64,000 bases of DNA from Arthrobacter sp. MYb23 (GTDB lineage: Bacteria > Actinomycetota > Actinomycetes > Actinomycetales > Micrococcaceae), in the NCBI RefSeq assembly GCF_002979775.1, contig NZ_PCPR01000025.1:1-64000 (forward strand). The letters are read 5' to 3'. Made by a program: the position numbers and the translations under genes. Positions 20,932-22,232 of the stretch are shown piece by piece. Each line of letters begins with the position of its first letter. Position 1 is the stretch's first letter. The notes under the pieces are model-generated. The model saw only the letters and a program-made list of their open reading frames with translations, was not told where the DNA came from and searched no databases.

Positions 20932-22050
20932 CTAACCGGCAATGAGCTCCTTGACGGGGCCTTCGTGCAGGGCAAGGTAGACATCATCCCGGATCTGGTT
21001 GGCTTGCTGATCCGTCATGGTCCGCGTGAGAGGACGCATCACCACCCGGATCAGGGCATTGGACTGCCCCTCGCGGATGCGGAGCCGTTCCTGCGCTGCC
21101 GGCGGAAGCGACCCGCAGGGTGTCAGGGCCAGCAGTTCCACCCTTTCAAGATCCTCGGCCAGGTCTCCCAGCGCAGTCCGGACCCTGTCCCCAAGCAATT
21201 CAGCATCCAGGCCTTCCCCAACCACAATCGAGAGATCCCGGCTGATGGATGGCATGTGAGAGACCGGCTTCCAAGGTTCCAGGTCCATCATCTGCTGTTG
21301 AATTCTTGGGTCCGCGGACCTCAGCAATCTGATGTCTGGGATGCCCTTGCGTAGCATCAACGCGCGGTCCAGCCCCATCCCTAGGGCCAGCCCTGACCAC
21401 TTCACGGGATCCAAACCAGCGTCCAGGAAAAGTTGTGGCGACATCAGCCCACACTCCGCAAGTTCCAACCATTCGCCGTCCATACGGACATCGATCTGCA
21501 GGCCGTGGTCCGTGTAGGGATGGACGGCCGGAGCTGCCCTCCAGTCCGCGCCCGGAAGTACAGCTGCCACAAGGGCCTCGACCATGTCCTGCAAGTGGCG
21601 CGGGCTCAGAGCCGTGCGGGAACTGACCCTCCACAGGTCCACTTGATGGGGAGTCCCCACGTGGGTACGGTCAATGGAATCACGGCGGTAGACCAAGCCA
21701 GGGATGGCCCAGAGCTCGTCGATGGACTCTTCAGGATCCAGACCACGCAACAGTGACGGGATGGACGCTGAGGTGTGGCTGCGCAGCATGACGGTGGGGC
21801 TGATGTAGCGGGAGTACCTTTGGTCGCGCGTGACGTCCGCTGGGCTGAACCCCAGCCGATCGTAGTTGTCCGCAACGCTGACCAAGGGACTGTGGCGGAT
21901 GGTTCGTTCCGGTACGTCCCCCTTGTCGCTCAGGGCACGCACTACGTCCCGCAACAGAATCTGCATGGCGTGTGGACGGTGGTCAGGATTGGAGAGGTCC
22001 CTGACATTCAGGGCGTTGTGAAGCTCGTCCGGGCTTAAATACGTGGGCAT
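20932..22050 (-). CDS. srmL: PheS-related ligase-like protein of unknown role (SrmL type)
   Basis: A 372-residue protein with a class II aminoacyl-tRNA synthetase core resembling the phenylalanyl-tRNA synthetase alpha chain: motif 2-like YRRDSIDRTH with HQVDLW (121-140), ELAECGLM (196-203) and motif 3-like GMGLDRALML (224-233). Residues 261-372 (SISRDLSIVV onward) look like the ferredoxin-fold anticodon-binding domain normally at the end of PheT. The layout is therefore like the single-chain mitochondrial enzyme. The family is distinct from true PheS and its substrate is not known; a normal pheST pair should exist elsewhere. RBS AAGGACC lies 6 nt before the ATG. The 5' leader is structured and holds a short ORF, suggesting attenuation-type control. 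Confidence 0.8.
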   Translation of the reverse strand: MPTYLSPDELHNALNVRDLSNPDHRPHAMQILLRDVVRALSDKGDVPERTIRHSPLVSVADNYDRLGFSPADVTRDQRYSRYISPTVMLRSHTSASIPSLLRGLDPEESIDELWAIPGLVYRRDSIDRTHVGTPHQVDLWRVSSRTALSPRHLQDMVEALVAAVLPGADWRAAPAVHPYTDHGLQIDVRMDGEWLELAECGLMSPQLFLDAGLDPVKWSGLALGMGLDRALMLRKGIPDIRLLRSADPRIQQQMMDLEPWKPVSHMPSISRDLSIVVGEGLDAELLGDRVRTALGDLAEDLERVELLALTPCGSLPPAAQERLRIREGQSNALIRVVMRPLTRTMTDQQANQIRDDVYLALHEGPVKELIAG

Positions 22051-22183
22051 AGCTGGTCCTTACTGTGTGGAATGAGTGGGTTTCCTCCCCCGACTCACTC
22101 CGCGCCAGGACCTAGGCGCGCGCCAATAAGCCCTCGCGACCGGAGACCGGTCGGGGGCAAGTAAATCGGCGCATGGAGAGCAT
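22051..22183 (-). promoter_or_regulatory. Structured leader of srmL
   Basis: In transcript order it holds CGACCGG/CCGGTCG with a 3-nt loop (22137-22153), then CGCGCC/GGCGCG with an 8-nt loop (about 22103-22122), then GGAGTGAGT/ACTCATTCC, a 9-bp stem with one G-U pair whose loop contains GGGGGAGG (about 22069-22101), and finally the AAGGACC ribosome site. The last two stems could exchange with partial pairings as the leader ORF is translated. There is no U-run, so control would act on translation or through Rho. Confidence 0.6.
22112..22183 (-). CDS. 23-residue leader ORF upstream of srmL
   Basis: It encodes MLSMRRFTCPRPVSGREGLL plus three residues and has no ribosome site. The -10-like TATAGT (22190-22195, minus strand) ends 6 nt before its ATG, the spacing of leaderless actinobacterial mRNAs. 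The first leader hairpin lies wholly inside it, and its stop codon lies in the loop of the second hairpin. The peptide has five Arg, one Phe, one Cys and no run of a single amino acid, so the sensed signal is not obvious. Coding status is inferred from position. Confidence 0.5.
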   Translation of the reverse strand: MLSMRRFTCPRPVSGREGLLARA

Positions 22184-22189
22184 GGGCCG

Positions 22190-22195
22190 ACTATA
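22190..22195 (-). promoter_or_regulatory. Candidate -10 box of the srmL transcript
   Basis: TATAGT on the minus strand, 6 nt before the leader ORF. No clear -35 is seen; instead CCTGTGCC repeats lie directly upstream. Confidence 0.5.
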
Positions 22196-22199
22196 CCCC

Positions 22200-22232
22200 G
22201 GCACAGGGCTTCGGCACAGGTGCCGGCACAGG
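22200..22232. repeat. Three GGCACAGG direct repeats upstream of the srmL promoter
   Basis: Copies begin at 22200, 22213 and 22225, one every 12-13 bp, just upstream of the -10 box. Regular spacing near one helical turn suggests a regulator array. The same word GGCACAG forms the stem of the hairpin after srmL. Confidence 0.55.

Follow-up and report, generated by a model that had tools for sequence, protein, structure and literature searches.

We found that the leader of srmL, a gene for a PheS-related ligase in Arthrobacter sp. MYb23, is probably (at a rough probability of 0.7) a translational attenuator that works through the ribosome and senses how well tRNA-Phe is charged, with SrmL as an auxiliary PheRS-like enzyme. 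This reading draws on the conservation of a short leader ORF and of the Phe codon within it, on RNA segments that change together with their pairing partners, on a ligase that is in most cases free of Phe, and on Phe-rich leaders before viral copies of the gene. The window is the whole stretch of DNA analyzed (64,000 nt; NCBI RefSeq assembly GCF_002979775.1, contig NZ_PCPR01000025.1, positions 1–64,000), and all parts of the locus lie on its minus strand.

In the window, srmL (20932–22050) encodes a 372-aa protein with 2 Phe residues, a class II core, and an FDX-ACB-like C-terminal domain, and is preceded by a 23-codon leader ORF (22112–22183; peptide MLSMRRFTCPRPVSGREGLLARA) that ends 61 nt before the srmL start at 22050. 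A TATAGT −10 box (22190–22195) stands 6 nt upstream of the leader start codon and no ribosome site precedes the ORF, as a sequence-only reading of this stretch had described; the predicted transcription start is the A of the leader ATG (22183), and if transcription begins there, no room is left for a ribosome site, so that the ORF is probably leaderless. The proposed regulatory Phe codon, TTT, is codon 7 (22163–22165). Directly 3′ of it lies segment A (segment 1; GCCCCCGACCGG, 22147–22158), which can pair with A′ or with B, and segment A′ (segment 2; CCGGTCGCGAGGGC, 22130–22143), likewise within the ORF, can pair with A or with the anti-Shine–Dalgarno segment C (segment 3). The GGTCCT core of C (22107–22112) overlaps the leader stop codon and is complementary to AGGACC at 22060–22055, in the Shine–Dalgarno (SD) region of srmL (segment 4; AAGGACC, 22055–22061). 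Segment B (GTCGGGGG, 22087–22094) is the complement of CCCCCGAC in A (22157–22150) and is enclosed in hairpin 3 (B:B′, 22069–22101).

The folded region 22195–22030 is more stable than 200 of 200 shuffles (z = −4.27). Three successive stems had been noted here: the first does lie within the ORF and the second holds the leader stop codon, in its loop, whereas the third (22101–22069), which was said to present GGGGGAGG in its loop, keeps this sequence partly paired and only partly in the loop. Stem 3 was rejected as a terminator because it has no U run, and inspection by eye of 22112–22050 found no U run after a hairpin and thus no intrinsic terminator before srmL in the window. The three GGCACAGG repeats reported upstream of the −10 box are present at 22200, 22213, and 22225 (within 22200–22232; 12–13 bp apart). 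Among 17 leaders listed, including that of the window, five relatives have 1–2 copies and 11 have none, and the repeats were rejected as a component of the switch for lack of conservation.

The distribution of srmL is patchy. With the window's own genome part of every count, it was found in 35 of 101 genomes of the same genus and, past the cut-off, in 9 of 297 genomes sampled from the order, 26 of 394 from the class, and 2 of 396 from the phylum; a scan of contigs from close relatives gave two loci. Outside its own phylum the gene was sought in plasmids, phages, and viral contigs, and among the latter a single phage query gave no matches and an alignment query gave three. For the comparison of leaders, 66 srmL loci were read (L003–L042 and L064–L088, 65 in all, plus L089 from another class). 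Left out before counting were L002 (the window's genome, represented by L036), 21 PheS-like loci that are not SrmL (L043–L063), and five srmL genomes of the genus that were not given as loci; L032 and L005 are probably one strain. A leader was present at 64 of the 66 loci, 61 of them detected by pattern (with the srmL start of L078 set by hand), two by hand (L022 and L088, with −10 boxes outside TANNNT), and one at L089. TANNNT lies 6–7 nt upstream of the leader start in 62 of the 64, and the set comprises 62 distinct leaders among 63 and 54 distinct ORFs among 64. Different genera, families, and one other class share the ORF, the stems, and their spacing, so that the comparison with relatives that the sequence-only reading had proposed as a check on itself came out in its favor.

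Two loci, L017 and L019, carry srmL without a leader and were left out of the codon and Phe counts. The L019 leader looks deleted, since the flanks resemble those of its relative L016; the L017 protein contains 2 Phe. A covariance model of the leader matched 41 of 121 genomes of the genus, at most once each, and 33 of the 35 that bear srmL have a leader, one per genome. Among the srmL genomes, G019 gave no match to this model and G025 gave a weak one away from srmL, while in G028 the match lies on a different contig from srmL, which begins at a contig end. An intact-scoring leader directly precedes only the C-terminal half of srmL (residues 189–372) in G032 (C12:20974–21653), and G1108 (L115:723–832; C62:3222–3331) has a decayed leader with broken reading frame and helices and no srmL seen in the 3-kb stretch read. 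In another genome (G022:C1:1785730–1786844), the srmL match falls into two pieces, each in its own frame, and the leader in front still has a score of 80 bits. With strict filters, none of the 121 genus or 118 class genomes gave more than one leader match; the class scan did not recover the leader known from G398 (L088), a sequence absent from the model. No common operon partner of srmL was seen in nine neighborhoods, whose mechanically called ORFs were judged by eye, and no tRNA gene lies beside srmL in ten loci. The loci L097 and L102, both from the window's family, have two flanking genes in common.

A Phe codon (TTT in 52, TTC in 2) is present in all 54 distinct leader ORFs, immediately ahead of the helix that switches; it is codon 7 in 47 ORFs, codon 8 in four, codon 6 in two, and codon 11 in one. 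TTC occurs in distant families (L081 and L089), which argues that the amino acid is kept and not the letters. TTT is the minor Phe codon, used for 12 of 81 Phe codons in seven likely CDSs of the window and for 1 of 44 in srmL CDSs. The ORFs are 21–29 codons long, with mixed stops (TGA 22, TAG 21, TAA 11) and starts (ATG 45, GTG 8, CTG 1), which argues that the leader frame is translated. Pro at +3 from the Phe codon is also invariant and lies in segment A. It had been observed that the leader peptide has no amino-acid run, which is true of the window peptide and misses its single invariant Phe codon. The leader thus lacks the run of regulatory codons expected of an attenuator, and one such codon is few, which counts against the attenuator reading.

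The signals previously suggested, namely Arg codons, Cys codons, or ribosome speed in general, are the least probable of the explanations we weighed. CGA stands directly before the Phe codon in 35 of the 54 ORFs, and Arg occupies +9 in 47, as an Arg signal would favor. The residue at −1, however, is Arg in only 37 ORFs and is replaced in the other 17 by Trp (7), Leu (7), Ser (2), or Thr (1), and Cys reaches no more than 21 of 54 in its commonest column (+2), compared to 54 of 54 for Phe. Two viral copies of srmL, with unrelated Phe-rich leader peptides, speak against ribosome speed as well as against Arg or Cys. What stands from the sequence-only reading is the probable leaderless ORF, the stacked competing stems, and ribosome-dependent attenuation; the suggested signals do not.

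The first of these viral copies (L127), in an uncultured 635-kb phage record, is preceded by the leader peptide MNTNTTFNFFFSHKMV and a terminator hairpin with a T run, and the second (L130), in a 181-kb viral contig, by MNMLNKNNFSFFMFDFFGTQARGAILLKE and a terminator. Both peptides are encoded with clusters of Phe codons and are unrelated to the window peptide. In the folding of L127, a ribosome on codons 5–11, which include Phe codons, forms a competing helix before the 3′ arm of the terminator is made. A short ORF (MESDFTHFKSFTT) and a hairpin before a ribosome site (L130:1406–1497) lie between the Phe-rich leader of L130 and srmL, possibly as a second control step. The other two viral genes (L128 and L129) have no Phe leader in the 420 nt before the gene; in L128, srmL directly follows the apparent end of a histidyl-tRNA synthetase gene. 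The four carriers (L127–L130) are large viral contigs of 181–635 kb.

Plasmid copies were also found. In an Azotobacter plasmid (NZ_CP066311.1, L125; a gammaproteobacterium), the ORF before srmL encodes MNNRSHRFSRPWVRSDQDRAARA, does not look leaderless, and has TTT two codons before CCC, the same spacing as in the usual leader; it is followed by an intrinsic terminator, as in L127 and L130, with a 3′ arm complementary to A. As long as this 3′ arm is yet to be made, A′ remains paired to the 5′ arm when the ribosome is at Phe, and is covered when the ribosome is at codons 16–23. Since A′ pairs with the 5′ arm when no ribosome is present, an OFF state would need a translating ribosome. None of the 12 features listed around this srmL is a resistance gene. 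A Glutamicibacter plasmid (NZ_CP142605.1, L124) has the usual leader and carries srmL near a Cmx (cmx) exporter gene, and a Corynebacterium diphtheriae plasmid (OV884290.1, L126) has a partial srmL match flanked by erm(X) and tet(65). Such neighbors hint at a possible role in surviving inhibitors. Phe codons therefore precede srmL in three different leader settings, and in this way the leaders tie the family to Phe-tRNA.

The pairing of the RNA segments is supported by their joint variation. In 31 representative leaders, 95.8% of cells in the A:B helix are paired and three pairs changed on both sides, whereas slid controls were 35–67% paired with no both-side changes. Compared to column shuffles, A:B scored higher in 500 of 500 for percentage paired, for cells changed on both sides, and for the covariation score, and did not exceed them for the number of both-side pairs (251 of 500) or of pair types (421 of 500). 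RNAalifold chose the same helix unprompted. Segment C, which lies at the leader stop codon or beyond it, and the SD also differ together between clades (the window has GGTCCT/AGGACC; pairs in other leaders include GGGGTCC/GGACCCC and CCTTCGCGG/CCGCGAAGG). Duplex tests of own against other segments were weak, as these are GC-rich and related. The two sides of A:B change in step, and C changes with the SD.

A structured RNA such as a riboswitch or a T-box that works without translation, with an incidental ORF, would fit these strong and conserved helices. It is nonetheless extremely unlikely: the frame is kept despite TAA, TAG, or TGA stops, ATG, GTG, or CTG starts, and a synonymous change of the Phe codon, and the leader matched no Rfam family by covariance model, whether T-box or other.

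The segments are complementary in the arrangement known from ermC, with 1:2 and 3:4 against 2:3 and the SD in segment 4; in 31 of 32 leaders, A′:C and C:SD have two or more nucleotides of C in common, the exception being L088. This four-segment layout, together with the resistance genes near srmL on one plasmid (cmx) and on either side of the partial match on a second (erm(X) and tet(65)), could also indicate an arrest-peptide or drug-sensing leader of the erm kind, where ribosome stalling would come from the nascent peptide, perhaps together with an antibiotic. We consider this very unlikely, because the residues before Phe vary and the peptides of the two viral leaders are unrelated, with Phe codons alone in common.

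Under the preferred reading, that of an attenuator sensing Phe-tRNA, a ribosome would begin on the leaderless ORF and, with Phe-tRNA plentiful, run through it; A:A′ would then close behind the ribosome, leaving C to pair with the srmL SD (OFF). When Phe-tRNA is short, the ribosome would wait at the single Phe codon and cover the 5′ half of A, so that the freed A′ could capture C before the SD is transcribed and srmL would be translated (ON). A:B could latch the ON state after the ribosome leaves. As a monomeric PheRS-like protein that is nearly or wholly free of Phe, SrmL could still be made without Phe-tRNA. The direction of regulation and the enzyme activity in this scheme are those that we infer, and the flip between its two states is that of the folding models.

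In folds up to B, A′:C exceeded A:A′ in 2 of 32 leaders without a ribosome, and, with the ribosomal A site at the Phe codon, in 29 of 32 (footprint +12; median 11.0 A′:C pairs) or 32 of 32 (footprint +15; 14.4 pairs); median A′:C pairing was nearly gone once the ribosome was at +8 codons. In folds up to the SD, with B present, no ribosome was needed for A′:C to exceed A:A′ in 20 of 32 leaders (median 10.7 pairs), and a ribosome placed four codons ahead of Phe gave this result in 29 of 32, which would confine the specificity for the Phe codon to a short time before B. When A′:C was forced, a mean of 1.3 C:SD pairs formed, compared to 9.1 with forced A:A′, and 24 of 32 leaders had a freer SD than in the OFF state (10 of them by >0.2; in one leader the SD was less free by >0.2); L039 has no A′:C pair to force, and L023 and L035 have only three. 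After A′:C was held and the ribosome removed, A:B formed (mean 7.9 pairs).

In full-length equilibrium folding of the leaders, a ribosome at Phe failed to release the SD (C:SD 8.5 pairs, compared to 7.9 without a ribosome; mean SD access 0.37 and 0.35, respectively), and there was no clear peak at Phe; C:SD pairing was lowest, and SD access highest, with the ribosome near the leader stop codon. This last result would favor the reverse logic, in which read-through of the leader, or its lack of translation, turns srmL ON and a ribosome waiting at Phe turns it OFF, as would the unaided win of A′:C once B is present and the Azotobacter terminator, which forms at full-length equilibrium with a ribosome at Phe. 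The reverse logic is nevertheless unlikely. Folds up to B give the opposite result, the competing helix of L127 forms with the ribosome on the Phe codons, and it would make little sense to shut off a Phe-free enzyme when Phe-tRNA is lacking. The equilibrium method appears blind to the switch, since the same calculation fails on L127, a textbook-like viral attenuator.

The PheS-like ligase that had been recognized downstream of the leader is a member of NCBIfam NF051887, "PheS-related mystery ligase SrmL" (527.5 bits; cut-off 300), and two plasmid and four viral relatives also score above this cut-off (387–524 bits). It falls far below that of canonical PheS (TIGR00468; 92.8 compared to 237.45 bits). 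In Pfam, the PheRS class II core scores above its cut-off and FDX-ACB just under, and by both sequence (with full-length similarity) and fold the closest solved structures are of human mitochondrial PheRS. A structure model built from six sequences has a mean pLDDT of 73.9 and gave TM-scores of ~0.45 with large rmsd to solved relatives, and its domain packing is not to be trusted. The host of the window has a second PheS-like gene, which reads as an ordinary pheS followed by pheT.

Motifs 2 and 3 belong to the class II synthetases, and FPF is the Phe-binding motif of PheRS. The arginines of motifs 2 and 3 (R122, R123, and R229) are present in >93% of 64 SrmL proteins and are invariant in two alignments that include plasmid and viral members (A3 and A4), and HQ is kept. 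In the pocket, HPY replaces FPF and ECG replaces GCG; the FPF motif is absent, both of its Phe positions being His and Tyr in 64 of 64 proteins, and H177, Y179, E199, D138, and W140 are each found in >93% of the 64 and are invariant in A3 and A4. These conserved changes, some of them beyond the avoidance of Phe, may point to a substrate other than Phe. Along with the low PheS score, they give some weight to the possibility, which we regard as doubtful, that Phe sensing is kept and SrmL charges another amino acid onto tRNA-Phe or acts on a substrate that is not tRNA. Against it, the class II motifs, the similarity to mitochondrial PheRS, and the FDX-ACB-like domain are kept, His and Tyr are the natural aromatic stand-ins if Phe must be avoided, and the gene is preceded by Phe codons.

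We collected 70 SrmL proteins, 68 of them distinct (the L124 protein equals that of L037). Of these 68, 45 have no Phe at all, plasmid and viral members included (42 of 63 in the first set), and the others have 1–6 residues; apart from Phe, every amino acid occurs in each of the 68, except for Lys, which three lack. Phe makes up 0.17% of first-set SrmL and 5.07% of 20 PheS proteins of the order, which hold 16–26 Phe each. These PheS came from the 21 PheS-like loci (L043–L063), all except L063, and were trimmed a set distance upstream of a motif, so that their lengths are approximate. At the 18 positions where the host PheS has Phe, SrmL has other residues, chiefly Tyr, His, Leu, Val, Met, or Ile, and a single alignment column keeps Phe to a notable extent (19 of 64). 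Three of the four viral SrmL proteins have no Phe even though their loci have 28–32% GC and most mechanically called ORFs next to them contain 3–8% Phe; the fourth (L129, 48% GC) has 6 Phe. A baseline of 30 such neighboring ORFs has 2.74% Phe and includes a 574-aa Phe-free ORF that may be spurious.

From these sequences, we infer that SrmL may be an auxiliary or emergency enzyme for charging tRNA-Phe, encoded by a mobile cassette of gene plus switch. More tentatively, and with somewhat less than even confidence, we suggest that leader and gene together form a mobile bootstrapping module: a synthetase relative purged of its own amino acid, armed by the loss of charged tRNA, with an altered pocket that would work when PheRS is inhibited or tRNA-Phe is attacked, and carried on plasmids (in two cases beside resistance genes) and large phages to counter poisons or defenses. 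The leaders that tie srmL to Phe-tRNA are the first functional handle that we found on the NCBI "mystery ligase" family. If true, a zero-Phe synthetase relative would be an extreme answer to the problem of an enzyme that needs the very item it restores, and its occurrence in soil bacteria, on plasmids, and in large viral contigs leads to the prediction of natural agents that attack PheRS or tRNA-Phe.

Attenuation mechanisms are well established for pheST and pheA, for ermC, and for trp. Like the pheST and pheA attenuators, the srmL leader has a short ORF in which Phe codons would time the ribosome against alternative helices, before a gene for Phe-tRNA or Phe, and the leaders of L127 and L130, with their Phe codon clusters and terminators, look alike to them. 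The window leader differs in its single Phe codon, its probably leaderless ORF, its lack of a terminator with the SD as output, and its target, a Phe-poor paralogue rather than pheST. With the translational attenuator of ermC it shares 1:2 and 3:4 pairing as the OFF state, 2:3 as the ON state, and an SD in segment 4, and differs in that the proposed stall is caused by Phe-tRNA and not by a drug, in the additional A:B helix, and in the leaderless ORF. Reportedly, the auxiliary TrpRS of Streptomyces is encoded by a synthetase gene controlled by its own amino acid, and srmL would likewise be a synthetase gene of Actinobacteria under such control. Human mitochondrial PheRS (FARS2), a monomeric enzyme, is the best match of SrmL in sequence and fold and has the same class II core and FDX-ACB domain, and SrmL differs from it in HPY for FPF and in being Phe-poor or Phe-free.

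A search of open-access papers found nothing on SrmL or on a Phe-free synthetase. A survey of Actinobacteria (PMC1262725) names pheST and phenylalanine attenuators. It lists trp, trpS, and leuS as having attenuators and cys and ilv genes as having leader peptides, and it reports that phenylalanine operons of the Actinobacteria studied show no conserved RNA structures. The ilvB1 attenuator of mycobacteria is discussed in PMC13236596, in which "phenylalan" and "pheS" are absent. In mycobacteria, attenuation by leaderless polycysteine ORFs is known (Canestrari et al. 2020, as described in PMC9031893), and these are like the window leader in being leaderless short ORFs of actinobacteria that serve as amino-acid attenuators, and unlike it in having a Cys run before other genes where the window has one Phe codon. 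The low cognate bias of biosynthetic enzymes, by which starvation enzymes avoid their own amino acid, is in PMC4209129 a statistical trend, and "tRNA synthetase" has no occurrences in that text; in SrmL, a synthetase relative, the avoidance is total in 45 of 68 proteins. If the proposed mechanism is true, it would show that an attenuator may rest on one codon when the helix follows at once.
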